NCBI RefSeq assembly: GCF_024505165.1
Contig: NZ_JANIBK010000032.1
Coordinates: forward strand, 1 to 36,509
DNA from: Methylomonas rivi
Lineage (GTDB): Bacteria > Pseudomonadota > Gammaproteobacteria > Methylococcales > Methylomonadaceae
Direction: 5' to 3'
DNA: 36,509 nt
The notes beneath the pieces were generated by a model, which searched no databases, was not told where the DNA came from, and saw nothing but the letters and a program-made list of their open reading frames with translations. A program made the position numbers and the translations under genes. This document shows, piece by piece, positions 6,633-30,471 of this stretch (within the stretch, counting starts at the first letter, position 1; each line of letters starts with the position of its first letter).

Positions 6633-7619
6633 ATGATAAATTCCCACTCCATCACGCGACGCCGTTTTATGACGTGTTTAAGCGGTCTGGCGTTAGCATC
6701 CGGACTGCCGGGTTGCGGCGGATTATCCGATCGGCCCGTGATCGTCGCCCTTAATAGATGGCTGGGGTATGAACCCTTGTGCCTAGCCTTGCGGGAGGGC
6801 TGGCTAGACCCCGGGCGGGTCGGCTTACTGGAGACCGCTTCCGCCACGGAATCCATGCGGGCATTGCTGGACGGCCGGGCGGATGGGGCGGCGCTGACGC
6901 TGGATGAAACCTTAAAAGTCAGGGCTGCGGGCTTGCCGGTTTCCGTAGTGATGGTCTGCGATATTTCGGCCGGCGCCGATATGCTGGTGGCCAGAGCCGG
7001 GATTCGGCGGTTGTCCGATTTAAAAGGCCGGACGGTCGGTTTCGAGGCTAGCGCCTTGGGGGCTTTGATGCTGGAGGAAGCCCTGCGGGCGGCGGGCTTG
7101 AATAAAACCGACATTACCCCTTTTTCAGTCAGTATCGATAAACATCGGCAGGCCTGGAAACATCGCCAGGTCGACGCGGTAGTCACCTATGAACCCGTGG
7201 CCAGTCAATTGCTGGCCGACGGCGGCATCAAACTGTTCGACAGCGGACAAGTGCCCAATACCATCGTGGACGTTTTGGCCATGCGTAGCGATGTGTTGGA
7301 TTTTAGCCATGCAAGGGCCGTTCGGCATGCGGTGGCGGCGCATTTTATGGCGGTGAATCATTTATACCGCAACCCGTATGACGCCGCCTACCGGATGGCC
7401 GAGCATTTGGGTTTTAGCGCGGCTGAAGTTTTGCCGGCGTTCAAGGGCATCATCCTGCCGGATGAGCGCGATAATTACCGCCTGCTCGGCGGGGCTGCGC
7501 CAGAGCTTTTACGCAGTGCCGGCAAGCTGTCGAGATTAATGCTGGAAAACCGGCTGCTGGCGCGGGAAGACAGTTTGGCGGCGTTGCTCAACCCCGATTA
7601 TTTGCCCAAGGACTTTTAA
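6633..7619 (+). CDS. Periplasmic substrate-binding lipoprotein (NMT1/SsuA-like)
   Basis: The 328-residue protein looks like the binding protein of nitrate/sulfonate/thiamine-precursor type ABC transporters. It begins SITRRRFMTCLSGLALASG, a twin-Arg-like signal, followed by LPGC, a plausible lipobox with Cys28 as the lipidated residue. Further on, VIVALNRWLGYEPL, DGRADGAALTLDE, DLKGRTVGFEASALG, and QVDAVVTYEPVASQLL follow the usual two-lobed NMT1-like pattern. No permease or ATPase gene is adjacent. Instead its stop is directly followed by the ATG of a sensory diguanylate cyclase, so it probably works as a ligand sensor feeding that protein; this is inference. No clear Shine-Dalgarno precedes the ATG at 6633. 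Confidence 0.82.
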   Translation: MINSHSITRRRFMTCLSGLALASGLPGCGGLSDRPVIVALNRWLGYEPLCLALREGWLDPGRVGLLETASATESMRALLDGRADGAALTLDETLKVRAAGLPVSVVMVCDISAGADMLVARAGIRRLSDLKGRTVGFEASALGALMLEEALRAAGLNKTDITPFSVSIDKHRQAWKHRQVDAVVTYEPVASQLLADGGIKLFDSGQVPNTIVDVLAMRSDVLDFSHARAVRHAVAAHFMAVNHLYRNPYDAAYRMAEHLGFSAAEVLPAFKGIILPDERDNYRLLGGAAPELLRSAGKLSRLMLENRLLAREDSLAALLNPDYLPKDF

Positions 7620-9977
7620 ATGCCGCCGACTAAAACCGGACATTTTGGCCATGCGCTATTGAAATGCCTGTCGGTATTACAGTTGTGCGGCGTTTTGGCT
7701 TGCCTGCCCGTTGCGGCGGCCGGGGAATCTGTCAAGATCGGCATCCTGGCTTATCGGTCCAAGCCGCAAACCTTGGCGCAGTGGCAGCCCTTGGCCGTGG
7801 CGCTGAAACAGGCGTTGCCGGATAGGGATTTCGCCATTGAGACATTCGATTTCGATGAATTGGCGTTGGCCGTGGCCAGCCGGCAAGTGGATTTCGTCCT
7901 GACCAATCCCGGGCATTATATTCAGCTATCCAAGCGCAACGGCCTGTCGGCCCCTTTAGCCACTTTGGCGTTAAACGACCGCGATCCCGAGCGGGCGATC
8001 ATGGCGTTCGGCGGGGTTATTTTTAGCCGTGCCGACGATGCCGGTATCGATACCATTCTGGATCTCAAGGGCAAAACCATTGCCGTCACCGGCATCGACT
8101 CGTTGAGCGGCTACCAGTTGCAGGCTTACGAATTTCAACGGGGCGGCGGCAATCTGTCGCAACAGGCCAAACTGCTGCAAACCGGCATGCCGCAGGATAA
8201 TGTCGTGGACGCTGTGCTAAACCGCCGGGCCGAAGTGGGCTTGGTGCGTACCGGGGTCTTGGAGGAATTGGCGGGCGAAGGCAAGCTGGATATGCGGCAA
8301 ATCAAGATTATCAACCGGCAGCCACTGCCCGGCTATCCGCACTTGCTGTCTACCCGGCTTTACCCCGAATGGCCGTTTGCCGCCATGCCGCAAACCGATG
8401 AAAATCTGGCCCGGCACGTGGCGGCGGCACTGTTTATGTTGGAAGAAAATAAAGCGGCCACGCGGGCCATCGGCATCCACGGTTTCGGCGTGCCCGCCGA
8501 CTACACGGCCATTGCGGATGTGCTCAGGGACATGCGGGTGCCGCCCTACGACGTGGTGCCCAGTTTCACCTTGAAAGACATATGGCTGCGCTACCAGTGG
8601 CCGTTGCTGGCGGCATTGCTGATTATCGGTGTGTTCCTGTTGTTGACGCTGAATTTGTTGCTGGTCAAGCGTAAATTAGTGGTGCAGCGCAAGTTGCTGC
8701 TGGAGCAAAAACAGCAACTATTGGACAGCGAAACGTTTTTGCGCACCTTGATAGGCACCTTGCCGGACCTGATTTGGTTAAAAAATGCCGACGGCGTCTA
8801 TCTGGCTTGCAACCCGCGTTTCGAAGGTTTTTTCGGCGCCGAGGAACAGGCGATCGTGGGCAAGACCGACTACGATTTTGTCGATAAAGCCTCGGCCGAT
8901 TCTTTTCGCGCCCACGATATGTTGGCCATGCAAAAGGACGGCCCGTATCTGATCGAAAAATGGGTTACCTTTGCCGACGATGGGCACAAAGAATTGTTGG
9001 AAACCCTGAAGATTCCGATGCGCGACGCGGCGGGCCAGTTCATCGGCGTGCTGGGCATCGGCCACGACATTACCGAGCGCAAGCAAGCCGAGGAAAAACT
9101 TTCGCTGGCGGCCAGCGTATTTACCCATGCCCGGGAAGGCATCCTGATTACCGACGTGGACGGCAGGATCATCGACGTTAACGACACCTTTACCGCGATC
9201 ACCGGTTACAGCCGCGAAGAAGCGCTGCACCGCAACCCCAGCATGTTGAAATCCGATCGGCAAAATAAGGCGTTCTATGCCGCCATGTGGGCGGATTTAA
9301 AGGAAAAAGGCGAATGGTCCGGCGAGCTTTGGAACCGGCGCAAAAACGGCCAGTTGTATGCGGAGATTCTGACTATCAGCGCGGTCCGCGATGCCCAAGG
9401 CAACACCCAGCATTATGTGGCCTTGTTTTCGGATATTACCCCGTTCAAGGAATACGAGCAGCAGTTGGAACGCATCGCCCATTACGATGCGTTGACCGGC
9501 CTGCCCAACCGTATTTTGTTGGCCGACCGCTTGCGCTTGGCCATGATGCAAGCGCTGCGGCGCGGGCAGAAAGTGGCGGTGGTTTTTCTGGATCTTGACG
9601 GCTTTAAAGCCGTTAACGATACCTTTGGCCATGACATGGGCGACGAGTTGTTGACGGCCTTGGCCGGCCGCATGAAGCAGACTCTGCGGGAAAGCGACAC
9701 ACTGGCCCGCTTGGGCGGCGACGAATTCGTGGCCGTGCTGGTGGATTTGCCGGATACCGAAGCCTGTTTGCCGTTATTATCGCGCTTGCTGACAGCCGCC
9801 TCCCAGCCGGTGGTTTACGGTGAATCGGCGATGCTGGTATCGGCTAGTTTGGGGGTTAGCTTTTATCCGCAGGCCGAGGATATCGACGCCGACCAATTGC
9901 TGCGCCAAGCCGACCAAGCCATGTATCAAGCCAAGATGAAGGGAAAAAACCAGTACCATTTGTTCGAGGCGGATTAG
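7620..9977 (+). CDS. Membrane diguanylate cyclase with PhnD-like sensor, two PAS domains and GGDEF
   Basis: The 785-residue protein has a signal peptide, then a periplasmic phosphonate-binding (PhnD-like) domain (VKIGILAYRSKPQTLAQWQPL; VDFVLTNPGHYIQL; DLKGKTIAVTGIDSLSGYQ). A single membrane span lies near residues 327-349, followed by a short coiled linker, two PAS/PAC domains (LRTLIGTLPDLIWLKNADG; and from about 495, ASVFTHAREGILITDVDG) and a GGDEF domain. The active-site GGDEF is intact at residues 699-703, and RESD at 690-693 fits the RxxD inhibitory site, so it should make cyclic di-GMP and be feedback-inhibited. There is no EAL domain. It abuts the upstream lipoprotein gene with no intervening base, implying one transcript and translational coupling. 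Confidence 0.92.
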   Translation: MPPTKTGHFGHALLKCLSVLQLCGVLACLPVAAAGESVKIGILAYRSKPQTLAQWQPLAVALKQALPDRDFAIETFDFDELALAVASRQVDFVLTNPGHYIQLSKRNGLSAPLATLALNDRDPERAIMAFGGVIFSRADDAGIDTILDLKGKTIAVTGIDSLSGYQLQAYEFQRGGGNLSQQAKLLQTGMPQDNVVDAVLNRRAEVGLVRTGVLEELAGEGKLDMRQIKIINRQPLPGYPHLLSTRLYPEWPFAAMPQTDENLARHVAAALFMLEENKAATRAIGIHGFGVPADYTAIADVLRDMRVPPYDVVPSFTLKDIWLRYQWPLLAALLIIGVFLLLTLNLLLVKRKLVVQRKLLLEQKQQLLDSETFLRTLIGTLPDLIWLKNADGVYLACNPRFEGFFGAEEQAIVGKTDYDFVDKASADSFRAHDMLAMQKDGPYLIEKWVTFADDGHKELLETLKIPMRDAAGQFIGVLGIGHDITERKQAEEKLSLAASVFTHAREGILITDVDGRIIDVNDTFTAITGYSREEALHRNPSMLKSDRQNKAFYAAMWADLKEKGEWSGELWNRRKNGQLYAEILTISAVRDAQGNTQHYVALFSDITPFKEYEQQLERIAHYDALTGLPNRILLADRLRLAMMQALRRGQKVAVVFLDLDGFKAVNDTFGHDMGDELLTALAGRMKQTLRESDTLARLGGDEFVAVLVDLPDTEACLPLLSRLLTAASQPVVYGESAMLVSASLGVSFYPQAEDIDADQLLRQADQAMYQAKMKGKNQYHLFEAD

Positions 9978-19051: not shown

Positions 19052-19083
19052 CTGTCATACAACTGTAATCTATTCGGTATAGC
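19052..19083 (+). promoter_or_regulatory. Pho box and -10 upstream of glgP
   Basis: CTGTCATACAACTGTAAT at 19052-19069 matches the E. coli Pho box consensus at 16 of 18 positions and shows the expected direct repeat CTGTCAT/CTGTAAT with a four-base gap. TATAGC at 19078-19083 is a plausible -10, eight bases on, with the box replacing a -35, as in PhoB-activated promoters. The rest of the 18852-19177 gap holds no gene; TTGCATGACTTTTGTCAC at 18983-19000 might be a very degenerate second box. Confidence 0.75.
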
Positions 19084-19177
19084 GTGCTAAGCCTATGAGG
19101 GCGGAGTTTGGTATAGGTTCCCGCCGCTCGATTACACAAGAATTCTTCTTTTTAGTACGCAAGTCAACGCAATAAAC

Positions 19178-21682
19178 ATGTCATCACATAAAGTCTTCCG
19201 TATCAGCCATCCGAAACCGGACATAACCCTGCTGCCCATGCTCGGCATGGATAAAGAGCACATCACGCATGACTTCAAGCATTACTACAGCCACCGTTTG
19301 GGCCGGGACGAACATTGCCGCTCACCGGAATATGCCTACAAAGCCATTTCCCTGGCTATCAGCGATCGCATGGTCGAACGCTGGAAACGCACCTACAATT
19401 TGCAGCGCAATCAAGACGGCAAGAATGCGTTTTATTTGTCGATGGAATTTTTGCTTGGCCGGCGTTTGAGCAACGCGGTGATGAACCTGGGCGTGGATAA
19501 CGAAGTGGCCAAGGGTCTCTACGATTTGGGCTTGGTAATGGAAGAACTCGTCGACGCCGAGCCCGATGCCGGTTTGGGCAACGGCGGCCTGGGACGTTTG
19601 GCGGCCTGTTTCATCGACAGTTGCGCGACCTTGAATCTACCGGTGACCGGTTATGGCTTGCGCTACGAATACGGCATGTTCATTCAGGAGATCGTCAACG
19701 GCGAACAGGTGGAAAAGCCCGATCATTGGTTGCGTAACGGCAATGTCTGGGAAATCGAGCGCCCGGAATACATCACCCGCATCAAGTTCGGCGGCCGTAC
19801 CGAAACACATATAGACGAAAACGGACACAAACGCATCTGCTGGGTCGATACCCGGGATGTGTTGGCCATGCCCTACGATACGCCGGTGCCCGGTTACAAG
19901 AACGATACCGTCAACACCCTGCGGCTCTGGAAAGCCATGGCAACGGAAGACTTTAATCTGCAGGAATTCAATGCCGGCGATTACGCCGAAGCCGTGGCGC
20001 AAAAAAATACCGCGGAAAATATCACCATGGTGCTGTATCCCAACGATGCCAATGAAAACGGCAAGGTCCTGCGCCTGCAACAACAATATCTGCTGGCATC
20101 CGCCAGCCTGCAGGACGTATTGGCGCACTGGGTAGGCCGCCACGGCCGCGATTTTTCCAAATTCGCGGAAAAAAACTGTTTTCAACTCAACGACACCCAT
20201 CCCAGTATCGCCGTTGCCGAATTGATGCGCTTACTGGTCGATATATACGGGTTATCCTGGAAAAACGCCTGGCAAATTACCCTCCAAACCATGGCCTACA
20301 CCAACCACACCCTGCTGCCGGAAGCTTTGGAAAAGTGGTCGGTCCCCTTGATGCGCCAGCTATTGCCGCGCCTGTTAGACATCATCTTCGCCATTAATGC
20401 CGACTTCATGGCCGAGGTGTCCGCGCGTTGGCCGGGAGACAAACCGCGTCAGGCCCGTATGTCCATCATTGAAGAAGGCTCGGTACAATACGTGCGCATG
20501 GCCTATCTGGCCATCATCGGCAGCTTTTCGGTCAACGGCGTGGCGGCGCTACACTCCGATCTGCTCAAACAAGGCCTGTTCCAGGACTTTTATGCCTTGT
20601 GGCCGGAGAAATTCAATAACAAAACCAATGGCGTCACCCCGCGGCGCTGGCTTGCGGGCTGCAATCCCGAATTGGCGAAACTGATTACCTCCACCATAGG
20701 CGACGGCTGGATCACCGACCTGTCGCATCTGGCAAAACTCAAGCCCTATGCCGATGATCCGGCATTCAGAGCACAGTGGCGGCAAATCAAGCAGTTTAAT
20801 AAACAAAAATTAATCGATCTAAAACAGCAGGAATTGCAAATCGATATCGATGCCGACGCTATGTTCGATGTGCAGGTAAAACGCATACACGAGTACAAAC
20901 GACAGGTGCTGAACATACTGCATGTCATTCACTTATACGACCGCATCAAGCGCGGCGACACCCAAAATTGGGTAGCGCGTTGCGTGCTGATCGGCGGCAA
21001 AGCCGCGCCCGGTTATGCCATGGCCAAGCGTATCATCAAATTGATCAACAACGTGGCGAACGTCATCAATAACGATGTGCAAGTCGGCAAGCAATTGAAA
21101 CTGGCATTTCTGCCCAACTACCGGGCCTCGGCCATGGAAAAAATTTGCCCCGGCACGGATTTGTCCGAGCAAATTTCCACCGCCGGCAAGGAAGCCTCCG
21201 GGACCGGTAACATGAAATTCATGATGAACGGCGCCCTTACCATCGGTACCTTGGATGGGGCCAATATCGAGATTCGGGACGAGGTCGGCGCGGAAAATTT
21301 CTTTTTATTCGGCTTGACGGCCGCCGAAGTGGAGGCAACCCATGCCCATTACAATCCGCGGCGGCTTATCCAACAGGACAGCGATTTGCAACGGGTCATG
21401 CATTTGCTGGAATGCGGTCATTTCAACCAATTCGAACCCGGTATTTTCGACGACATCCTTGCCTCCTTGAAAAGCCCGCAAGACCCTTGGTTAACGTTAG
21501 CGGATTTTCGCGGCTACATAGATACGCAAAAACGGGTGGAGCAGCTCTGGCGCGACCCCGAACAATGGACGCGGATGAGCATACTCAATACCGCCGCCAG
21601 CGGTAAATTTTCCAGCGACCGCACGATTGCGGAATACAACCGCGACATCTGGAAATTGGCGCCGATTACTGCCGATAGTTAA
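19178..21682 (+). CDS. glgP: Glycogen/starch/alpha-glucan phosphorylase
   Basis: The 834-residue enzyme releases glucose-1-phosphate from glycogen using inorganic phosphate and pyridoxal phosphate. Family segments include NLSMEFLLGR-like FYLSMEFLLGRRLSNAVMNLG, DAGLGNGGLGRLAACFIDS, QLNDTHPSIAVAELMRLL, the VKRIHEYKRQVLN segment, and EASGTGNMKFMMNGALTIGTLDGANIEI with the cofactor-binding Lys680. Length is normal and the frame intact. It stands alone behind a strong Pho box, so expression probably rises when phosphate is short, when glycogen is often the remaining energy store. That link is inferred from the site. Confidence 0.96.
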   Translation: MSSHKVFRISHPKPDITLLPMLGMDKEHITHDFKHYYSHRLGRDEHCRSPEYAYKAISLAISDRMVERWKRTYNLQRNQDGKNAFYLSMEFLLGRRLSNAVMNLGVDNEVAKGLYDLGLVMEELVDAEPDAGLGNGGLGRLAACFIDSCATLNLPVTGYGLRYEYGMFIQEIVNGEQVEKPDHWLRNGNVWEIERPEYITRIKFGGRTETHIDENGHKRICWVDTRDVLAMPYDTPVPGYKNDTVNTLRLWKAMATEDFNLQEFNAGDYAEAVAQKNTAENITMVLYPNDANENGKVLRLQQQYLLASASLQDVLAHWVGRHGRDFSKFAEKNCFQLNDTHPSIAVAELMRLLVDIYGLSWKNAWQITLQTMAYTNHTLLPEALEKWSVPLMRQLLPRLLDIIFAINADFMAEVSARWPGDKPRQARMSIIEEGSVQYVRMAYLAIIGSFSVNGVAALHSDLLKQGLFQDFYALWPEKFNNKTNGVTPRRWLAGCNPELAKLITSTIGDGWITDLSHLAKLKPYADDPAFRAQWRQIKQFNKQKLIDLKQQELQIDIDADAMFDVQVKRIHEYKRQVLNILHVIHLYDRIKRGDTQNWVARCVLIGGKAAPGYAMAKRIIKLINNVANVINNDVQVGKQLKLAFLPNYRASAMEKICPGTDLSEQISTAGKEASGTGNMKFMMNGALTIGTLDGANIEIRDEVGAENFFLFGLTAAEVEATHAHYNPRRLIQQDSDLQRVMHLLECGHFNQFEPGIFDDILASLKSPQDPWLTLADFRGYIDTQKRVEQLWRDPEQWTRMSILNTAASGKFSSDRTIAEYNRDIWKLAPITADS

Positions 21683-21704
21683 TTTCGGCGCTTGTAGCCG
21701 CGGC

Positions 21705-21736
21705 ATTTCATAAAGCTGTAACCTGATCGGTATAGC
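21705..21736 (+). promoter_or_regulatory. Pho box and -10 upstream of the dehydrogenase gene
   Basis: ATTTCATAAAGCTGTAAC at 21705-21722 matches the Pho consensus at 14 of 18 positions. TATAGC at 21731-21736 follows after eight bases, the same -10 and spacing as at glgP (CGG-TATAGC in both), which strengthens both calls. It lies just after the glgP stop. Confidence 0.6.
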
Positions 21737-21876
21737 TTTCCCGCATGGGATTAAATAGGCGGGCGGCTGAGGAGGTTTCATAAAAACCGATGCCGTTATT
21801 ACCAAATCGCCCATTTACACAGGTTTTGCGCAATTCGGCCGAGATTAAAAATTCACCACCATGACCGACATCGAAA

Positions 21877-23118
21877 ATGGATACAAATCAAAGCGGCTTG
21901 AACATGCGGCTTGCTGAACACATAACGGTTTCCTCAGAGGGCAACGAGGAAAAATTCAAGATTAAAACCTATAACAACCTATCGCCTATCGGGCTGGAAA
22001 AGCTTTCAAGCGCTCGTTACGAAATTGGCTCCGAGATTGAATATCCCGATGCAATCCTGCTACGTTCGCAAGACTTACACAATGTCGTCATTCCCGATAC
22101 GGTTAAAGCCGTGGGCAGAGCGGGTTCGGGCGTAAACAATATTCCGGTCGATGAACTGTCAGCGCGCGGCGTTCCGGTTTTCAATGCGCCGGGCGCCAAT
22201 GCCAATGCCGTGACCGAGTTGACAATTGCCGGTCTGTTAATGGCGGCGCGCAATATTCCGGAAGCCTTGGCTTTCGTCAACGGTCTTAAGGATGAAGATG
22301 GCGGACTGGATGCGCGCGTCGAGCAGTCCAAGTGCCGTTTCTCCGGCATTGAACTGGCCGGCAAGACCTTGGGCGTCGTCGGGCTGGGCGCAATTGGCGT
22401 CAAAGTCAGCAATGTTGCCCGGGCGCTCGGTTTGAAAGTCGTGGGATTCGACCCGCAAATGACGCTGGAAAATGCATGGCGGCTGTCGTCGGATGCCATT
22501 CCGGCTGACAGCTTAAACGAATTATTATCCCGTTCCGATTTTGTCAGCCTGCATGTCACGCTGAACGATCAAACCCGGCATCTTATGGACGACATACGTA
22601 TCGGCAAGATGAAGCCCAATGCCACCTTGCTGAATTTCTCCCGCGCCGAAATTGTCGATGAAGCCGCGCTCCTGGCCGCACTCGATACCGCCATGCTGCG
22701 CGCTTATGTTTCCGACTTTCCGTCGCCAGCCTTGTTGAATCGCCCGCGCGCCATCGTATTACCGCATTTGGGCGCATCGACCAAGGAAGCCGAAGAAAAT
22801 TGCGCGCGGATGGTTTGCGAACAGGTGCGCGATTTCCTTGAAAACGGCACTATTCGCTGCGCGGTTAATTTTCCGGATATTCATTTATCCCGCAACGAAC
22901 ATTTTCGGCTTGCGATTGCGAATGACAACATACCCGGCATGGTCAGCCAGATCACTGCAATTCTGGCGGAGAACAACATCAATATCGTGGATATGTTGAA
23001 TAAGTCACGCGGTAATTATGCGTTTACATTAATTGACATCAATGAGCGGATTTCGCCGGAATTGCTTGCCCGCCTTATCTCAATAAAAGGCGTTCTTTCG
23101 GCACGCGGCATCGCTTGA
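21877..23118 (+). CDS. serA: D-3-phosphoglycerate dehydrogenase, ACT-containing short form
   Basis: This 413-residue protein is a D-2-hydroxyacid dehydrogenase of the phosphoglycerate dehydrogenase type, catalysing the first step of serine synthesis from 3-phosphoglycerate. FKIKTYNNLSPIGLEKL, AVGRAGSGVNNIPVDEL and FNAPGANANAVTEL are typical of this subgroup; GLGAIG (169-174) is the NAD-binding loop, the SRAEIVDE segment carries the catalytic Arg, and LPHLGAST the catalytic His. An ACT-like domain (IANDNIPGMVSQITAILAENNINIVDML) ends it. The first 18 residues are an extension relative to the usual start, so ATG 21904 is an alternative. Methanotrophs with a serine cycle also need such an enzyme. 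A Pho box lies 155 bases upstream. Confidence 0.88.
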   Translation: MDTNQSGLNMRLAEHITVSSEGNEEKFKIKTYNNLSPIGLEKLSSARYEIGSEIEYPDAILLRSQDLHNVVIPDTVKAVGRAGSGVNNIPVDELSARGVPVFNAPGANANAVTELTIAGLLMAARNIPEALAFVNGLKDEDGGLDARVEQSKCRFSGIELAGKTLGVVGLGAIGVKVSNVARALGLKVVGFDPQMTLENAWRLSSDAIPADSLNELLSRSDFVSLHVTLNDQTRHLMDDIRIGKMKPNATLLNFSRAEIVDEAALLAALDTAMLRAYVSDFPSPALLNRPRAIVLPHLGASTKEAEENCARMVCEQVRDFLENGTIRCAVNFPDIHLSRNEHFRLAIANDNIPGMVSQITAILAENNINIVDMLNKSRGNYAFTLIDINERISPELLARLISIKGVLSARGIA

Positions 23119-23223
23119 TAACCGGTGCCCGACACAATCGCCCTTAGGGTCATGCATCAATAAAAATCAGACAGCGCTATTCCCCCCGGACAACACCGTT
23201 TTTATAAAGCCTACGAGGATACT

Positions 23224-23856
23224 ATGACCGCCGATACTCTTGATAGACCCCTTTCCCGCCCCCTGGAAACCATATTCAAGGAACACCTCGATAACACCAT
23301 CGAGTGCGGCAACGTCCTGAGCGAGCTGTTCTTGAATCTTGAGGAGCCCGACCAATACATCGCCAAAGTCAAACAGCTGGAGGAGAAGGGGGATAAATTA
23401 ACGGCCGAAGCATACGGCGGCCTGGAATTGCTGACCTACTCAGAGTATATCCATATCACCGAACAACTGGTCAAGCGCTTGGACGATATCGTCGACGGCA
23501 TTAACAATACCGCGCGACTGATCGATATTTGCCATCCGAGGCAGATAGAGAATGCGGCGCAGGAGATTCTATCGGCCTTGATGTCGATGATAGAAACATT
23601 GCAATCGCAGGTGGCTCGGTACCCGGACATCGACCTGGCAAGCATGAGAGCTTGCTGCAAGGCGCTCAAGACCAACGAGGAAAATGCCGACTTAATTTAT
23701 CACGAGTGGCGAAAAAAACAGCGCCGCGTGCTGGTGCTTTCCCTGATCGAAGAGAGTAACTGGACCGAAATTCTGGGGGTTCTCGAACAAACCACGGACG
23801 CCGCTTATCACGCGGGGTTATTGCTGGAACGCACGGCCCGCTATCGCCAAAAATAA
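23224..23856 (+). CDS. DUF47/PhoU-like family protein
   Basis: This 210-residue all-helical cytosolic protein fits the DUF47 (PhoU-related) family, usually found beside PiT-type phosphate permeases and thought to regulate them. The pattern of long helices with acidic metal-binding motifs is visible: LEEPDQYIAKVKQLEEKGDKLT (E-x3-D pair), VKRLDDIVDGINNTARLI, and LKTNEENADLIYHEWRK. GAGGATACT precedes the ATG. No permease is adjacent; instead the next gene is a CAX-type antiporter. It follows serA by 105 bases and could be in the same transcript. Confidence 0.86.
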   Translation: MTADTLDRPLSRPLETIFKEHLDNTIECGNVLSELFLNLEEPDQYIAKVKQLEEKGDKLTAEAYGGLELLTYSEYIHITEQLVKRLDDIVDGINNTARLIDICHPRQIENAAQEILSALMSMIETLQSQVARYPDIDLASMRACCKALKTNEENADLIYHEWRKKQRRVLVLSLIEESNWTEILGVLEQTTDAAYHAGLLLERTARYRQK

Positions 23857-24045
23857 TAGCGCGCGCCGAAAATTAGCGCTTCGCTTGTTCCCTTTGCAAT
23901 TGCATGGGGAGGCATTCTACCGTTGCCGATGTAACGCAATTTGGCGGCCGGCGATTGAATTTCGCATGACTATTAACACACGCCATGCCGTTAAACGGCT
24001 GTTCGAAACCCACTATTGCCCTACCCAAAATATAGCGCCCTTGTC

Positions 24046-25158
24046 ATGACAAATTTATGCAGAAACCCGATCTATTGGCTGCTGCCGTTTATACCATTGA
24101 CTTGGTATCTGCAACACTTGGGTGCTGAAATGGCCGCGGATATTAAATTTTCTTGCGCGGCATTGGCCATCATCCCGCTGGCGGGCCTGATGATCGAATC
24201 AACCGAGCAGATAGCCTTCCGGGTTGGGGAGGCCGTCGGCGGTTTGCTAAACGCCACTTTCGGCAACGCACCGGAATTGATTATCTCGCTGATTGCCCTA
24301 AAGGCAGGCCTGCTGGATATGGTAAAGGCGTCCATCGTCGGCGTTATTCTCACCAACCTCTTGTTTGTACTCGGTTTGTCCTTGTTGGTCGGTGGAATAT
24401 GCAACCAGGAACAAAAATTTAATCGACGAGGCGCGCGCGTCGAACGATCGGTGCTGATGATCGCCGCCATCAGCATTGTGGTGCCCAGCGTTTTCGATAA
24501 CTTCATTTCATCCGATACCTACAAACAGGAAATGGCGCTCAATGCCGGCGTGGCTGTGGTTTTATTGATCACTTACGGCTTTAATCTGTTATTTATGTTG
24601 AAAACCCATCCGCATTATTATCTGCCTAAAAAAACCGAGGAAGTCCAGGCGCCGGAAACCGAACAGTGGCCGCTATTTTCGGCGATAACTGTATTGCTGC
24701 TAGCATCGGTGATATTGGCTTTGATGAGCGAAGTATTGGTAGGTAATGTCGAGGAAACGGCAAGGCACTTTGGCATGTCGAAAGCTTTCATCGGCGTGAT
24801 CATTATCGCCTTGATCGGCGGTGCCCCGGAGAGCGTGGCGGCCGTAACCATGGCAAAGAAAAACAAACTTGACTTAACCCTGGGCATCGCCGTGGGCAGC
24901 AGCATTCAGATTGCGCTGTTTGTGGCGCCCGTACTGATGCTCAGCAGCTATTACATTGCTCCCAGACCGCTTAATCTGGTGGTGGGAAATGCCGGCATCA
25001 TGATAGTCATGCTCCCCGTTATGATTTTTTCCATGATCGGCGCCGACGGCAAATCCAACTGGTTTAAGGGCGTCCAACTCCTGAGCGTTTATTTGCTGAT
25101 GGCCTTGTTCTGCTATTTCCTGCCGGATAGGCCTGAACTTCCGATGATCGCACCATGA
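24046..25158 (+). CDS. Ca2+/cation:proton antiporter (CAX/ChaA family)
   Basis: This integral membrane protein has about eleven hydrophobic segments and the two inverted alpha-repeats of the CaCA superfamily: GGLLNATFGNAPELIISLIALKAG and ALIGGAPESVAAVTMAKKNKLDLTLGIAVGSSIQIALF, each with the ion-binding acidic residue (GNAPE, GGAPE). An acidic Glu-rich stretch (PKKTEEVQAPETEQ) lies between the halves. Such proteins export Ca2+ in exchange for protons. I chose ATG 24046 (MTNLCRNPIYWLLPF) over an in-frame TTG at 24016. TATAGC at 24031-24036 is close enough to suggest a very short leader. It sits between the DUF47 gene and a Pho-box-preceded pair. Confidence 0.9.
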   Translation: MTNLCRNPIYWLLPFIPLTWYLQHLGAEMAADIKFSCAALAIIPLAGLMIESTEQIAFRVGEAVGGLLNATFGNAPELIISLIALKAGLLDMVKASIVGVILTNLLFVLGLSLLVGGICNQEQKFNRRGARVERSVLMIAAISIVVPSVFDNFISSDTYKQEMALNAGVAVVLLITYGFNLLFMLKTHPHYYLPKKTEEVQAPETEQWPLFSAITVLLLASVILALMSEVLVGNVEETARHFGMSKAFIGVIIIALIGGAPESVAAVTMAKKNKLDLTLGIAVGSSIQIALFVAPVLMLSSYYIAPRPLNLVVGNAGIMIVMLPVMIFSMIGADGKSNWFKGVQLLSVYLLMALFCYFLPDRPELPMIAP

Positions 25159-25194
25159 CTATAAGCGTGTGGCCTGAACGGAGCGCAAGATCGT

Positions 25195-25231
25195 TTGTCA
25201 TATAGCTGTAATATTCGGCGTGAAGAATAAT
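25195..25231 (+). promoter_or_regulatory. Pho box upstream of the DUF5132-HMA_2 pair
   Basis: TTGTCATATAGCTGTAAT at 25195-25212 matches the Pho consensus at 15 of 18 positions, and is followed by ATTCGG as at glgP. The -10 is less clear: TGAAGA at the eight-base spacing or AATAAT at 25226-25231. It lies 37 bases after the antiporter stop. Confidence 0.6.
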
Positions 25232-25320
25232 AAGTTTGCGTATGGCAAGATGACAACCGCTACGGACGGTTTTAACCCCGTCCGCTTTTAAAACCCTTAT
25301 ATTCTGTTAGGAAGTTGAAT

Positions 25321-25638
25321 ATGCCCAAACTCGACGATCTTGTAAAAAACGGCACCCCGCTGGGTATTGCCATAGGCTTGGGCGCGGCTATCGCCGCAAC
25401 GGTGATTGTACCGGCATTGCCGGCCATCGTGCGCGCCAGCCGCCCCACCGCCAGAGCCGCCATCAAATCGGGGCTGGTATTGCTGGAAAAAGGCCGGGAA
25501 GTCATGGCCGAAGCCAATGAGGAATTCGACGATATGCTGGCCGAAGTTAAAGCGGAATTGAAGCAGGAACGCAAGGCCCGGACAGCCCATGTCGATGACA
25601 CCGAGGTCGTTATCAAATCTAACAGCGACGAAGCATGA
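25321..25638 (+). CDS. Small DUF5132-like membrane-associated protein
   Basis: The 105-residue protein has one hydrophobic, Ala/Ile-rich helix (GIAIGLGAAIAATVIVPALPAIV, about residues 13-36), then RPTARAAIKSGLVLLEKGREVMAEANEEFDDMLAEVKAELKQERKA, a charged amphipathic helix. This fits the DUF5132 pattern as I remember it; function is unknown. AGGAAG lies seven bases before ATG 25321, which is preferred over the TTG six bases earlier. Its stop overlaps the next start (ATGA), indicating translational coupling with the HMA_2-like protein, so the two probably act together, perhaps in the envelope with the P-type ATPase. Confidence 0.72.
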   Translation: MPKLDDLVKNGTPLGIAIGLGAAIAATVIVPALPAIVRASRPTARAAIKSGLVLLEKGREVMAEANEEFDDMLAEVKAELKQERKARTAHVDDTEVVIKSNSDEA

Positions 25639-26144
25639 TGGCGCAAATACTTTTACCTAAAGCCTATATCAAGCATCAACTGGCGGGGCGGGTGCGGCTA
25701 AAAATTCCGCAAAAGCGAAACGACGAGGCCTACTTCGAGGCGGTAGCCGAAGCGTTTGCGGACTGCGAAGCCATTACCCAGTTGCAACTTAACCCGCAAG
25801 CGGCCAGCCTGTTGATTCAACACGGTTCCGCGCCCTTCAGCGACATCGCTACATTTGCCGCCAGCGCGGGGCTATTCGCTTTAGTGGCGCAAGACGATCC
25901 CGATCTGCCGGCCGTCGAGCATGCCTCTGTCGCCGGTTTGTCTTCGCTGGTAGCATCGCAGCTGGACCACAAACTGGCCGACTTAAGCGCCGGCCGCATC
26001 GACGTGCGCTCGGTGTTATTCGTCACCTTCATGGGCCTGACTATTCACGAGGCCGCCAAGGGCCATGTCATGGCCCCGGCCAGCACCTTTTTATGGCGGG
26101 CCATACAGCTGTTGAACAAGAAGAACGAAAAACTGTTCGACTGA
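25635..26144 (+). CDS. Protein with N-terminal HMA_2-like domain
   Basis: The 169-residue protein begins with KAYIKHQLAGRVRLKIPQKRNDEAYFEAVAEAF, whose H-x2-AGR-x-R-x-KIP signature closely parallels the N-terminus of the P-type ATPase at 30408 (HEHVAGRGRVKIPGLYRN). This is the pattern of the HMA_2 (ferredoxin-like, metal-domain-related) family, but no CxxC metal motif is present. The second half has moderately hydrophobic segments (ASLSSLVASQL; VRSVLFVTFMGLTIHEAAKGHVMAPASTFLW). It starts in an ATGA overlap with the DUF5132-like gene. It converges with the MetK paralogue, 14 bases apart. I infer an accessory partner of the ATPase. Confidence 0.7.
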   Translation: MMAQILLPKAYIKHQLAGRVRLKIPQKRNDEAYFEAVAEAFADCEAITQLQLNPQAASLLIQHGSAPFSDIATFAASAGLFALVAQDDPDLPAVEHASVAGLSSLVASQLDHKLADLSAGRIDVRSVLFVTFMGLTIHEAAKGHVMAPASTFLWRAIQLLNKKNEKLFD

Positions 26145-26150
26145 ATAAGA

Positions 26151-26175
26151 CCGCGCTATTACCTCAACAGCGCGG
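26151..26175. terminator. Hairpin between converging operons
   Basis: CCGCGCT at 26151-26157 pairs with AGCGCGG at 26169-26175 around an 11-base loop. It spans the gap between the two converging stops and could act as a weak bidirectional terminator. No long T-tract follows on either side. Confidence 0.35.
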
Positions 26176-27340
26176 CTTTATCGGTATTTTCCCATGGCAG
26201 AACCAAGCCGTGTTCGCCGAAATGGCCGATGGCCGGCAGCCGTTGATAAAAAACCCCGTTATGCAGGGCCGGCAGCTGGCGCAGATTGAAATCGCGCACG
26301 ATGGCGCCCAAACGGAAATCGAAATGCCTGAGCAGGCGTTTACGAATTTCGTGATCGTCCAGCTTGCCGGTACCCTGGGTATTCAACAATACGCTGACCG
26401 GGCCGGCATGGCCGATGCTGTAACTCAGTTGTACCTCGCATTGTTCCGCCAGACCGGCGGCGACGATATTTTTTGCCGCGTGCCGTGCCGCATACACCCC
26501 GACCCTATCGATACGGGATGGCGATTTGCCGCTCAAGGCCGCGCCGCTATGGCGGGCAAAACTGCCGTAGGTATCGCTGTCGCTTTTCCGCCCGGTCATG
26601 CCGGAATGCGCGGCCGGCCCGCTGCGCACGAAAGGCCCGCTGGGATTGATGACGATTTTGGTCAGGTTATCCGGCTGTAAAGGCGCTTGCGCAAACACCG
26701 GCGCGATCACATGGTGGCGCAAATCTTCTTCCATGGTCATTTGCGTGGGCGTTTTGTCGGGATTGTCGCAGCCTATGATCAAGGTAATGCTGTGAATGCG
26801 TTTGGGTTGGTTATCGACGAACTCCACGCCAACCTGGGTGGTGCAATCGGGCGATATGTAGTCCAAAGTGTCCCAAACCAAATGCAAGCGCCGCGCCAGC
26901 GCATTGGCCAGCGTGATCGGCAGCGGCATCAGTTCCGGCGTGTGGCGGCAGGCGTAGCCGAACAAGGTGGATTGGTGCGACACGGTGATCTGCTCGATTT
27001 CGTCGTCTTCCAGCGCCGAAAAATCGGTCTCGCGCGACGACTTCTGCTGTTCGATCAAGCTGGTCACCACCGTGCAGTCCGCCGCGTTGAAGTCTTCCGG
27101 CCAATAGCCGATGTTCTCGATGACTTTGCGCGCGGTTTCCGGAATATCGACCACCGCGTCGCTGGCGTAGCGGGCCGCCAGAAACAGAATGTTGCGCGAT
27201 AGCGCGCATTCGGCGGTGATGCGGGACGTCGGGTCCTGACGCAAAAATGCGTCGATGATCGCATCGCTGACGATATCGCACATGCGGTCCGGATGGCCGG
27301 CGGTTACCGATTGGGAGTTGAATACGAAATCGCTGATCAT
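26159..27340 (-). CDS. Divergent S-adenosylmethionine synthetase (MetK) paralogue
   Basis: The 393-residue protein is collinear with MetK over its whole length: SQSVTAGHPDRMCDIVSDAIIDAF, TLFGYACRHTPELMPLPI, INPSGPFVRSGP, GMTGRK (248-252), SGKSPSRIDRVGVYAARHAAKNIVAAGLAEQCE, and GHFGEHGLVLPWENTD. However, residues needed for catalysis in E. coli MetK are changed: the GGEITT Glu55 is Arg57, the GDQG Asp118 is His122, and the Asp before GLTGRK is His245. The GHPD Asp18, Glu44 and the GRK pair remain. It therefore is unlikely to be the housekeeping enzyme and may be a pseudoenzyme or act on another substrate. Its ATG overlaps the ATPase stop (ATGA), so the two are translationally coupled. Confidence 0.85.
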   Translation of the reverse strand: MISDFVFNSQSVTAGHPDRMCDIVSDAIIDAFLRQDPTSRITAECALSRNILFLAARYASDAVVDIPETARKVIENIGYWPEDFNAADCTVVTSLIEQQKSSRETDFSALEDDEIEQITVSHQSTLFGYACRHTPELMPLPITLANALARRLHLVWDTLDYISPDCTTQVGVEFVDNQPKRIHSITLIIGCDNPDKTPTQMTMEEDLRHHVIAPVFAQAPLQPDNLTKIVINPSGPFVRSGPAAHSGMTGRKSDSDTYGSFARHSGAALSGKSPSRIDRVGVYAARHAAKNIVAAGLAEQCEVQLSYSIGHAGPVSVLLNTQGTGKLDDHEIRKRLLRHFDFRLGAIVRDFNLRQLPALHNGVFYQRLPAIGHFGEHGLVLPWENTDKAALLR

Positions 27341-30300
27341 GCGGCGTCCTCTCGAACTGGATTGCGTTTATTGGAGATTTTTGCGGATTCATTAACAACC
27401 AGCGGCAAACCGGCTCCCGCCAAAATAGCCAGCAGGTCGACCGGACCGACCGGCGCCAGGCGCAACAAACCGCGCAGAGCAGGCACCGTGACCGCCAGAA
27501 TTTGCAACAGCACCGAAAAACCGATTGCGTTATCCAGATAACGGTTGGATTCGCGGTTTTGCGGGTTAAATACCGAGGTCTGCTCGGAACGGCAACTGTA
27601 AGCTTGCAGCAATTGGCCCAAGGTTAACGACATGAAGGCGTTGGTACTGGCTTTCGGCCCCATGCCGTACCGTAACAGGCTGTAGCCGTAAACACCCAAG
27701 GCGCCGGCGCTGATGACGCTGGATTCGCGCAACAGTTTCGCATAGTCCTTGGGCGAAACGATGGGCTGGTTGGGGTCGCGCGGCGGGCGTTTCAGCACGT
27801 TGCCTTCCGGCGGTTCCAACGCCAATGCCAAGCCCGGGAAAATATCGGTAATCAGATTAATCCACAACAATTGCATGGGGTTCAATATTTCCGCGCCGCC
27901 TATCATCGCGCTGACCAACATGACTTCTATTTCGCTGAGGTTGGTGGATAACAGGAAATGCAGACTCTTGCGAATATTATCGTAAATGGTTCTGCCTTGG
28001 CGAATGGCGGTTATCATGGTCGACAAATCGTCCTCTTCCAGTACCACGTCGGCAATCGAGCGGGCCACATCGCTGCCTTTGTCGCCCAGGGTTACGCCGA
28101 CATTGGCGGCTTTCAAGGCCGGGCCGTCGTTGATACCGTCGCCGGTCATCGCCACTACTTTGCCGTTCAGCTGCAAGGCCTCGACAATACGCAATTTATG
28201 CGCCGGACTGACGCGGGAAAATATCGAGGTGGTATTGACCAGACCGGCCAACACCTGCGGATTGAGTTTTTCCAGATGCACCGAGTCGACCATTTCCAGC
28301 GGCTCGTTTTCGCCTTTCAATCCCAGCCGCCTGCCTACTGAATAAGCCGTCGCGCTTTGGTCGCCGGTAATCATCACCGTGGCTATGCCGGCGTCGTGGA
28401 ATTCTTGCATCAGCTCCGCCATGCCGGGACGCATCATATCTTCCATGCCGACCAGACCCAGCCAGATCAAATCGGCGGCACTGTCGTCGGCAAGCTCGTT
28501 CATCAGCCGGTAGGCGACACCCAATACCCGCAACGAATCCGCCCCCAAGCGTTCGTTACCGACTAGGATTTTCTCTCTGGTCTCGTCGCTCAAGGGTTGT
28601 AAACCGTCACTAGTCTCATGCCATTTGCACAAATCCAACATGGCCAGCGGGCTGCCCTTGACGGCCACCAAATAATCGCCATCAACCGCCATGTGCACGG
28701 TCACCATGTAGGGCCGGTCTTCGGCGCGATAGTCGGTTTTTAGCAGAGGATATCGCCCGCGCAGATCCCGCACATCCTCGCCGGCATCCATCGCCAGTTG
28801 CATCAGGGCGTTTTCGGTCGGAGAACCGATCAATCCCTGCCCGTGTTCCGCGAGCTTGGATTCGTTGCACAACACCAAAACTTCCATCATGCGTTTGAAT
28901 GCCGGGTTAAGCGCATAAAGATCGACCGCTTCCTCGCCCTGCAAAAACCGGCCGTGCCGGACTTGCAGAACCGTTTCCAGCCCATGCACGGCAACAGCGC
29001 TCATTTTGTTCAACGTCAGCGTACCGGTTTTATCCAGACATATCACCTGCACGGAGCCCAGGTTTTCCACCGCCGGCAGCTGCCGTATCAGCACTTTATG
29101 CCGCTGCATATCCTTGATGCCCAGCGCCAGCGTGGTGGTCGCAACCGCCGGCAATCCTTCCGGCACCGCCGCCACGGCCAGGGAGATGGCCGACATCAAC
29201 ATTTCCAGCAGGGGCCGGCCGCGTACCAAGCCGACCGCAAATACCAACGCGCAAACGCCGGAGCTGAACAGCGCCAGTTGCATGCCCATGGTGTCGATTT
29301 GTTTTTGCATCGGCGTTTCCGGCGGCCGAGCTTCGCCGACCAACTCCTGAATCTTGCCGATTTCCGTGTAACGCCCTGTCGATACCACCACCGCCTTGCC
29401 GTTGCCGCCCGTCACCATGGTGCCCATGTACACCATGTTCAACCGGTCCGCCAGCGCGGTTTCGTTCTGGCAGGCGAAGGCAAAATTCTTGGAAACCGGC
29501 AGGCTTTCCCCGGTCAGCGGCGACTCGTCGATACTCAGCCGGTTGCTGTTCAGCAAACGCGCATCGGCCGGAATGTAGGCGCCGGGCGCTAGCAACAACA
29601 CATCGCCGATCACCACTTCATGCAGCGGAATCTCGAGGGTTTTGCCGGCGCGAATCACGGTTGCCGTATCGGGCGTCAACTGCCCCAAGGCGCTGATGGT
29701 TTCCTCGGCGGATTTTTCGGTGAAATAGCCGATCACGGCGTTGATACCGACCACGACCGCAATCACCGCTGCATCGGCCAAACCGCCCGTGGCAATGGAT
29801 ATCGCCGCGGAAACGCCCAACATGGCGACAGGCGCCGAAGCAAATTGCTGCAATACCATCTGCAAGGGCGAGCGGTTTCTGTAATGAACCAGCGCATTAG
29901 GCCCGAACCGAGCCAATCGCTGGGAAACCGCATTGGCCGGCAAGCCGTCCTCGGCGCTGTCCAGAATTTCCAGCACGCGGCTGTGCGGCAGGGTATGCCA
30001 AAAATGCTGTGCCTGGGCTTGATAGCCTTGCTCATCGGCGGATATTTCTTTTTTGGCTTTGGCGGCGGGTTTTTTAAGCTTTGCGGTTTTGCCGGGTCGG
30101 TCTATCCCTTCGCTACGCCGTAAAACCGGTTGTCCTAACTCGGCTTCCAGAAAGCGTACAATACCCCGCAAATAGTTTTCCAGCTCCTGCTGGCTGGCGT
30201 ATTCGATTATCAGATTGCCGGTCAATGTGCTGGCGCGCACCGAACGCACGTCATCCAATCCCAGCACATAGGCTTCCAACTCTTCCCTTAACTGCTCATT

Positions 30301-30408
30301 GCGATACAAGCCGGGAATTTTCACGCGGCCGCGCCCCGCAACATGTTCATGCAGCACGGAAAGATAAAGCGGCGGCCGGTCGGTTGCGGATTGCATAAGC
30401 GATGTCAT
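27337..30408 (-). CDS. P-type cation ATPase, Ca2+-pump type, with N-terminal HMA_2-like domain
   Basis: The 1023-residue pump has an N-terminal HMA_2-like region (HEHVAGRGRVKIP at 20-32), a Lys/Ala-rich linker (105-122), then a P2A-type core: TGES at 299-302, PEGLP at 416-420, the phosphorylated Asp459 in DKTGTLT, and TGDGINDGPALKAANVGV. Residues forming the Ca2+ sites of SERCA are matched: Glu in PEGLP, Asn and Glu in the segment STNLSEIE, and Asn, Thr and Asp in LWINLITDIFP. So Ca2+ (or Mn2+) export is likely. A strong Pho box lies about 45 bases upstream. No clear Shine-Dalgarno precedes the ATG. The MetK paralogue follows in the same operon. Confidence 0.9.
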   Translation of the reverse strand: MTSLMQSATDRPPLYLSVLHEHVAGRGRVKIPGLYRNEQLREELEAYVLGLDDVRSVRASTLTGNLIIEYASQQELENYLRGIVRFLEAELGQPVLRRSEGIDRPGKTAKLKKPAAKAKKEISADEQGYQAQAQHFWHTLPHSRVLEILDSAEDGLPANAVSQRLARFGPNALVHYRNRSPLQMVLQQFASAPVAMLGVSAAISIATGGLADAAVIAVVVGINAVIGYFTEKSAEETISALGQLTPDTATVIRAGKTLEIPLHEVVIGDVLLLAPGAYIPADARLLNSNRLSIDESPLTGESLPVSKNFAFACQNETALADRLNMVYMGTMVTGGNGKAVVVSTGRYTEIGKIQELVGEARPPETPMQKQIDTMGMQLALFSSGVCALVFAVGLVRGRPLLEMLMSAISLAVAAVPEGLPAVATTTLALGIKDMQRHKVLIRQLPAVENLGSVQVICLDKTGTLTLNKMSAVAVHGLETVLQVRHGRFLQGEEAVDLYALNPAFKRMMEVLVLCNESKLAEHGQGLIGSPTENALMQLAMDAGEDVRDLRGRYPLLKTDYRAEDRPYMVTVHMAVDGDYLVAVKGSPLAMLDLCKWHETSDGLQPLSDETREKILVGNERLGADSLRVLGVAYRLMNELADDSAADLIWLGLVGMEDMMRPGMAELMQEFHDAGIATVMITGDQSATAYSVGRRLGLKGENEPLEMVDSVHLEKLNPQVLAGLVNTTSIFSRVSPAHKLRIVEALQLNGKVVAMTGDGINDGPALKAANVGVTLGDKGSDVARSIADVVLEEDDLSTMITAIRQGRTIYDNIRKSLHFLLSTNLSEIEVMLVSAMIGGAEILNPMQLLWINLITDIFPGLALALEPPEGNVLKRPPRDPNQPIVSPKDYAKLLRESSVISAGALGVYGYSLLRYGMGPKASTNAFMSLTLGQLLQAYSCRSEQTSVFNPQNRESNRYLDNAIGFSVLLQILAVTVPALRGLLRLAPVGPVDLLAILAGAGLPLVVNESAKISNKRNPVREDAA

Positions 30409-30440
30409 GGCAAAAAGTGCGGCGAATGATTGCTCAAAGC

Positions 30441-30471
30441 ATATTACGCTTGTGTGACAAATTTATGACCG
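30441..30471 (-). promoter_or_regulatory. Pho box and -10 upstream of the P-type ATPase operon
   Basis: On the minus strand CGGTCATAAATTTGTCAC (30471-30454) matches the Pho consensus at 16 of 18 positions, with TAATAT (30446-30441) as -10 seven bases further. Transcription would start near 30434, leaving a leader of about 25 bases before the ATPase ATG. Confidence 0.72.

Follow-up and report, generated by a model that had tools for sequence, protein, structure and literature searches.

Genes and Pho boxes of the locus

The DNA analysed here (the window) is contig C32 of the Methylomonas rivi assembly (NZ_JANIBK010000032.1, 36,509 nucleotides; the assembly comprises 4.52 Mb in 382 contigs). 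It contains a gene cluster in which four transcription units are preceded by Pho boxes, and its sequence indicates that a phosphate-linked calcium module in this cluster is very probably controlled by PhoB. On the plus strand the order is glgP2, a 2-hydroxyacid dehydrogenase gene of the phosphoglycerate dehydrogenase kind (PGDH), a PhoU_div/DUF47 gene, a cax-type exchanger gene, a DUF5132 gene and an HMA_2 gene. On the minus strand, convergent with these, a Ca2+-ATPase gene is followed by a MetK-like gene that overlaps it by 4 bases (Table 1). The exchanger may start instead at the ATG at 24046, and the DUF5132 protein has, as judged by eye, an N-terminal hydrophobic stretch and a Glu/Ala-rich helix.

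The original prediction had named a glycogen phosphorylase, a PhoU-like protein, a DUF5132-like gene and a P-type ATPase for calcium/cation export, and these calls mostly stood, the PhoU-like protein being of the PhoU_div/DUF47 kind. Its further mention of serine-pathway flux is weaker: the dehydrogenase scored 249 bits with TIGR01327, the NCBIfam phosphoglycerate dehydrogenase model, under the cut-off of 454, and it had no match at E<=1e-60 among 36 other Methylomonas. Beyond that prediction, we found that glgP is a second copy, that the ATPase operon closes with a MetK-like gene whose active site is altered, and that certain relatives have pst operons in the vicinity of the module.

The window was scanned with CTGTCATAWAWCTGTMAY, which we take to be the Pho box consensus of the E. 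coli type, allowing at most 3 mismatches over 18 bases. The scan returned exactly the four sites that had been predicted. All four are intergenic and end 34-154 bases before a start codon; the box before PGDH is overlapped by a 105-aa minus-strand open reading frame (ORF) that is probably spurious. When the window was shuffled 100 times with dinucleotides preserved, 0.15 sites were obtained on average and 1 at most, so that no shuffle reached 4. The whole genome holds 28 such sites, compared with 16 for the reversed pattern, and several of the 28 fall within ORFs and are probably chance matches. The binomial chance of finding 4 of the 28 inside the window is 7e-5, and that of finding 3 of the 14 sites with at most 2 mismatches is 2e-4. 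The glgP2 box is the best consensus match in the genome and the only site with a single mismatch. Together with the native matrix described below, the shuffles, the genome-wide rank and the binomial test bore out the predicted clustering and ruled out chance as its explanation. A general scan for sigma-70 promoters and terminators gave 8 and 20 sites, compared with 10.5 and 17.7 in shuffles.

Table 1. Genes and Pho boxes of the locus, with positions in the window
Feature	Position	Strand	Basis
Pho box before glgP2	19052..19069	+	17/18 consensus; -10 TAGCGT at 19080-19085
glgP2, second glycogen phosphorylase copy	19178..21682	+	PF00343, TIGR02093
Pho box before PGDH	21705..21722	+	15/18 consensus; -10 TAGCTT at 21733-21738
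2-hydroxyacid dehydrogenase, phosphoglycerate dehydrogenase kind (PGDH)	21877..23118	+	PF02826, PF00389, ACT
PhoU_div/DUF47 protein	23224..23856	+	PF01865
cax-type Ca2+/H+ exchanger	24016..25158	+	TIGR00378, 317 bits vs cut-off 211
Pho box before DUF5132-HMA_2	25195..25212	+	16/18 consensus
DUF5132 small protein	25315..25638	+	PF17195
HMA_2 domain protein	25635..26144	+	PF19991
MetK-like protein, methionine site lost	26159..27340	-	TIGR01034, 321 bits; residue comparison
P-type Ca2+-ATPase with N-terminal HMA_2 stretch	27337..30408	-	Profile matches, motifs
Two overlapping Pho boxes before ATPase	30443..30471	-	Registers 30471-30454 and 30460-30443, 11 bases apart; 30471-30454: 16/18 consensus, -10 TATGCT at 30443-30438

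Native motif, promoter spacing and the glgP2 and DUF5132 boxes

Outside the window, Pho boxes of this genome precede a PstS homologue (under the TIGR00975 cut-off), phoB, phoU, a Porin_O_P gene, EutB, a two-partner secretion gene and a GTPase gene. PhoB is encoded on contig C43 (331 bits vs a cut-off of 296) and has a Pho box upstream of its own gene. The same motif precedes the PstS homologue, phoB, phoU and the Porin_O_P gene, and the boxes of the window are native in character. Of the genome's 28 sites, 24 lie outside the window, and 12 of these, picked by eye, were used to build a native 18-base matrix. Eight sites were excluded that lie inside or overlap an ORF of at least 100 aa (L020, L022, L026, L032, L037, L041, L042 and L043), and four that had no convincing downstream gene (L035, L040, L044 and L045); the retained site before the Porin_O_P gene (L028) likewise overlaps a 111-aa ORF. 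The background was 300 kb of the same genome (599,490 positions). The four window sites scored 23.1, 18.2, 23.5 and 17.6, while the background maximum was 15.4, and thus each outscored 599,490 of 599,490 positions. With a 36-base matrix from the same 12 sites, no background position matched any window site. With an 18-base matrix from four core Pho genes, three window sites outscored all of the background; the ATPase site at 30471 was equalled by 10 background positions, and its overlapping register at 30460 scored 19.3. Register 30460 outscored 30471 under both 18-base matrices. A separate Pho box for the DUF47 gene or the exchanger was also considered and dropped, since no plus-strand box in front of either gene ranks among the ten highest matrix scores of the window.

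The -10 element played no part in finding the sites, and spacings of 4-16 bases after the box were compared. At the native sites, TAnnnT occurs at spacing 10 in 7 of the 12 and only once in total across the 12 other spacings. At this spacing, three of the four window boxes are followed by a native-like hexamer (those before glgP2, PGDH and, for register 30471, the ATPase), and the DUF5132 box is followed by AAGAAT, which agrees with TATAAT at 4 of 6 positions. The string CGG-TATAGC, which had been predicted as a -10 shared by glgP2 and PGDH eight bases from the box, is present before both genes, but the eight-base register was replaced by a ten-base one: because native sites place the -10 ten bases after the box, the likely -10 elements are TAGCGT and TAGCTT, two bases further downstream. 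The joint PhoB control that had been proposed is supported by the native matrix, by the native -10 at three of four sites, and by the motif shared with pstS, phoB and phoU. We also considered that the sites are true direct-repeat boxes of the OmpR family but serve a paralogous response regulator with another signal, such as calcium or metals. Besides PhoB, the genome does encode nine proteins that match the PhoB model over nearly its full length but under its cut-off. Against this, the same motif and -10 spacing are found before phoB, pstS, phoU and the Porin_O_P gene, and in some relatives the module has pst operons close by; we regard this scenario as very improbable.

Two of the boxes were found again in relatives. 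The genome has an ordinary glgP on contig C16, 80% identical to glgP2, and among the 36 other Methylomonas only one genome (G014) holds a copy nearer to window glgP2 than the ordinary copies are (85%). In a 12-row tree, glgP2 and this copy (G014_C162) formed a clade with support of 100/100. The upstream regions of 32 glgP copies were scored, namely 31 of 66 matches, all in-genus, and that of locus L126. The window scored 23.1 and the G014 orthologue 16.4; the next values were 14.0 and 12.4, and no box of at least 15 was found before the 30 other copies examined. Because only glgP2 and its orthologue pass 15 among the 32 copies, the box belongs to the extra glgP copy. The G014 orthologue shares with the window the CGGTATAGCG that comes after the box. 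At that locus (L114, G014:C162), the boxed glgP2 lies near a CHAD-domain gene and near two box-like sites, at 7011 and 7022, that overlap each other. A similar pair of glycogen phosphorylases exists in Synechocystis, where, in the accessible part of the report, GlgP(2) was the more abundant of the two under phosphate limitation; that part names no Pho box on the second copy, unlike our case (PMC3600050).

For DUF5132, 400 upstream bases were examined at 17 loci, 10 in Methylomonadaceae and 7 outside the family. A box scoring at least 23 was found in 5 of the 10 family loci (the window and 4 of the 9 others). Among 308 control upstream regions, none reached 20 and one reached 15. Locus L112 has a site scoring 22.9 about 0.9 kb upstream of DUF5132, in the same direction.

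The calcium module and its MetK-like protein

The best NCBIfam model for the pump is TIGR01522 (PMR1-type Ca2+-ATPase), and among solved structures SPCA1 and LMCA1 are closest to it in sequence. Like these P2A Ca2+-ATPases (LMCA1 of Listeria and SPCA1 of animals), the window pump carries DKTGT, PEGLP in transmembrane segment (TM) 4 and WINLxxD (N-x-x-x-D) in TM6. Unlike them, it has an extra N-terminal HMA_2 stretch (28 bits, slightly under the Pfam cut-off of 30, and without cysteine in the window protein) and an overlapping MetK-like gene. In TM5 it has N-x-x-E, where SPCA1 has S and A; we take these two residues to correspond to Asn768 and Glu771 of SERCA. The 28 other module loci all retain DKTGT and the TM5 and TM6 motifs, and PEGLP is present in all 25 that cover that region.

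Neighbouring genes were scored at 30 module loci, one of them the window and many of them cut by contig ends; L101 was counted on its ATPase alone, since its contig ends inside that gene. The module is accessory: an ATPase at E<=1e-210 was present in 17 of 237 family genomes, the own genome included. The ATPase, MetK-like, HMA_2 and DUF5132 genes also occur together in Nitrosomonas, in a metagenome-assembled genome (MAG) of Nitrospirae and in Candidatus Magnetomicrobium, and a Syntrophobacteraceae MAG has the ATPase and MetK-like genes only. In 6 of the 30 loci (four Nitrosomonas, L101 and L126), no more than about 5 kb separates pstSCAB-phoU from the ATPase gene, and a seventh, L133, has pstB-phoU near the module. 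This linkage spans Nitrosomonas, two Methylomonadaceae genera and one other gammaproteobacterial MAG. Pfam confirmed pstS, pstC, pstA, pstB, phoU and the exchanger of L126, a pstB-like gene and phoU of L133, and a pstS-like gene and phoU of L101; the pstS of L126 has no box scoring over 11.1. A Ca2+ exchanger is present in 10 of the 30 loci, in 9 from one branch and in the window from another, the two being 27% identical over the aligned part. A pair of GTPase genes stands beside the module in five loci (L126, L128, L130, L132 and L134), and the own-genome homologue of the first of them (63%) sits behind a Pho box on contig C212 (L031, G000:C212:4392).

The MetK-like protein passes the S-adenosylmethionine (SAM) synthetase cut-off, with 321 bits compared with 626 for the ordinary metK on contig C22. 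In structures of SAM synthetases, methionine is contacted by Gln98, Asp238 and Glu55 (PMC1282579). We compared 14 residues in 30 module proteins, 29 of the first set and a further one, L209, from another family. Asp238 is replaced by His and Glu55 by Arg or Met in 30 of 30, and Gln98 is retained in the module proteins of Methylococcales except L112 and lost in the others. Replacements were also found at Asp118 (29/30), Lys165 (27/30) and Lys269 (to Arg in 30/30). Like MetK, the module protein is similar over its whole length and keeps His14, Asp16, Glu42, Asp163, Arg244, Lys245 and Lys265 in all 30; Asp271 is kept in 29. As a control, the best 30 of 42 ordinary MetK matches were compared (nine other ordinary ones lay outside the control), and all 14 residues, Glu55 and Asp238 included, were unchanged in 30 of 30. 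The same was true of L210, a divergent second copy outside the module. Because the ordinary MetKs and the divergent L210 are unchanged, divergence alone fails to explain the residue loss. Because the methionine-site residues are lost in the module proteins and intact in ordinary MetKs, the module protein is probably not a SAM synthetase, and the naming of such proteins as SAM synthetases may be wrong; judging from the retained residues, it may bind ATP or triphosphate and not methionine. A survey at E<=1e-115 found a MetK-like protein in 1 of 398 phylum genomes, the own one, a threshold too strict for distant members: a further member was found in G276 (323 bits), whereas the other low-scoring copy retrieved, in G273, kept all of the ordinary residues.

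Probable PhoB control of the module and its possible role

Several results weigh against PhoB control of the whole set. First, with a 36-base matrix from the four core genes, the glgP2, PGDH, DUF5132 and ATPase sites were matched by 13, 5, 0 and 42 background positions, and register 30460, the better ATPase box, has CAATCA at spacing 10 and thus no native -10, so that either register may be the functional one. Second, in 13 relatives the loose consensus gave 406 sites and the reversed control 409, and because it is no commoner than its control, only strong sites in relatives can be trusted. Third, of the five remaining family loci with DUF5132, one has a weak box (14.2) and four have no score over 10, and in 7 of 7 loci outside the family no box was found within 400 bases of DUF5132. 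Fourth, a box before PGDH was found in the window only (1 of 18 loci; 0 of 17 other genomes), and the same holds for a box immediately in front of the ATPase gene (1 of 26; 0 of 25 others); in L130, where an exchanger gene heads the ATPase operon, a box scoring 17.1 is located 441 bases before that gene. Finally, the pump scores 628 bits with TIGR01522, under the cut-off of 798, and pst genes were not found near the module in 23 of the 30 loci, the window among them and several on short contigs. Conservation thus holds for the boxes of DUF5132 and of glgP2, in the latter case in the sole orthologue found, and was not observed for the PGDH box or for one immediately in front of the ATPase gene.

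It could accordingly be argued that only the glgP2 and DUF5132 boxes are functional, those of PGDH and the ATPase being accidents of this lineage, as their absence before homologues elsewhere would suggest, or recently copied promoters, since the boxes of PGDH and glgP2 share the CGGTATAGC that comes after them. However, under the 12-site matrix both boxes outscore all of the background, each has a native-like -10, and the repeat occurs in two registers in the ATPase promoter, so we consider this explanation unlikely. Metal efflux is a frequent function of HMA_2 and P-type ATPase genes, and the many loci without pst genes seen nearby would also fit a general metal-efflux cluster whose proximity to phosphate genes is incidental. 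This is rather improbable in view of the pst linkage across Nitrosomonas, two Methylomonadaceae genera and one gammaproteobacterial MAG, the high-scoring boxes upstream of DUF5132 at five loci of the family, and the scores of the pump, which reach 628 bits with Ca2+-ATPase models, although under their cut-off, and only 245 bits with heavy-metal ones.

Under PhoB control, the favoured reading, PhoB, active when phosphate is scarce, would bind the 11-base repeats before four transcription units and turn on glgP2, PGDH, DUF5132-HMA_2, and the HMA_2-bearing Ca2+-ATPase with the MetK-like gene; the DUF47 protein and the Ca2+/H+ exchanger would be co-induced with PGDH, probably by read-through. GlgP2 would free glucose-1-phosphate from glycogen. 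The pump and the exchanger would hold cytoplasmic Ca2+ low during high-affinity phosphate uptake or, alternatively, would supply Ca2+ outside the cytoplasm, to the periplasm. Ca2+-dependent phosphatases act in the periplasm. By analogy with PacL and the CtpC pump, DUF5132 and HMA_2 may form a membrane platform for the pump. In the PacL-CtpC metal efflux platforms of mycobacteria, a P-type ATPase is likewise encoded next to a small protein that combines a hydrophobic stretch with a Glu/Ala-rich helix (a likeness judged by eye; PMC9374683), whereas the window pump is of the Ca2+ type and not P1B. Membership of the DUF5132 protein in PacL/DUF1490 was rejected: up to E 5, no DUF1490 match was found for the window protein and one relative.

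As a kind, the Pho regulon is already known. Like the PhoB/PhoR regulon, the locus has an 18-base box with half sites 11 bases apart and a -10 at fixed spacing, a motif that also precedes the PstS homologue, phoB, phoU and a gene of the phosphate porin family. Unlike it, the window adds a second glgP, the dehydrogenase, DUF5132-HMA_2 and the Ca2+-ATPase with its MetK-like gene, and probably also the DUF47 protein and the Ca2+ exchanger. A Pho table of Bacteroides fragilis lists a putative calcium-transporting ATPase, BF4348 (PMC3547664). In the open-access literature, we found no description of this gene set, of the glgP2 specialisation or of the MetK-like protein, which does not prove absence in print, and no papers on DUF5132 or "HMA2 domain-containing" proteins. 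It is possible, and we propose it tentatively, that the MetK paralogue (with its methionine site lost and most of its ATP/triphosphate site kept), DUF5132, HMA_2 and the exchangers form, with the Ca2+-ATPase, a so far undescribed device for phosphate starvation, in which Ca2+ export would be tied to the status of phosphate or triphosphate and which is patchily distributed across methanotrophs, Nitrosomonas, Nitrospirae and a magnetotactic bacterium. PhoB control would extend the Pho regulon of methanotrophs to calcium transport and a dedicated glycogen phosphorylase copy, and MetK-like proteins of several lineages that score as SAM synthetase probably make no SAM.

Other boxes of the genome were also noted. 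One lies 65 bases before the gene for EutB, the ethanolamine ammonia-lyase large subunit (L021, G000:C11:32609), and may reflect phospholipid head-group salvage within the same regulon. On contig C111, two boxes (L025 at 117 and L027 at 12822) precede a ShlB-type two-partner secretion gene and the gene of a DUF2341 protein. Elsewhere in the window, positions 6633-9977 encode an NMT1-type binding protein followed by a fusion of a phosphonate-binding domain, PAS domains and GGDEF.

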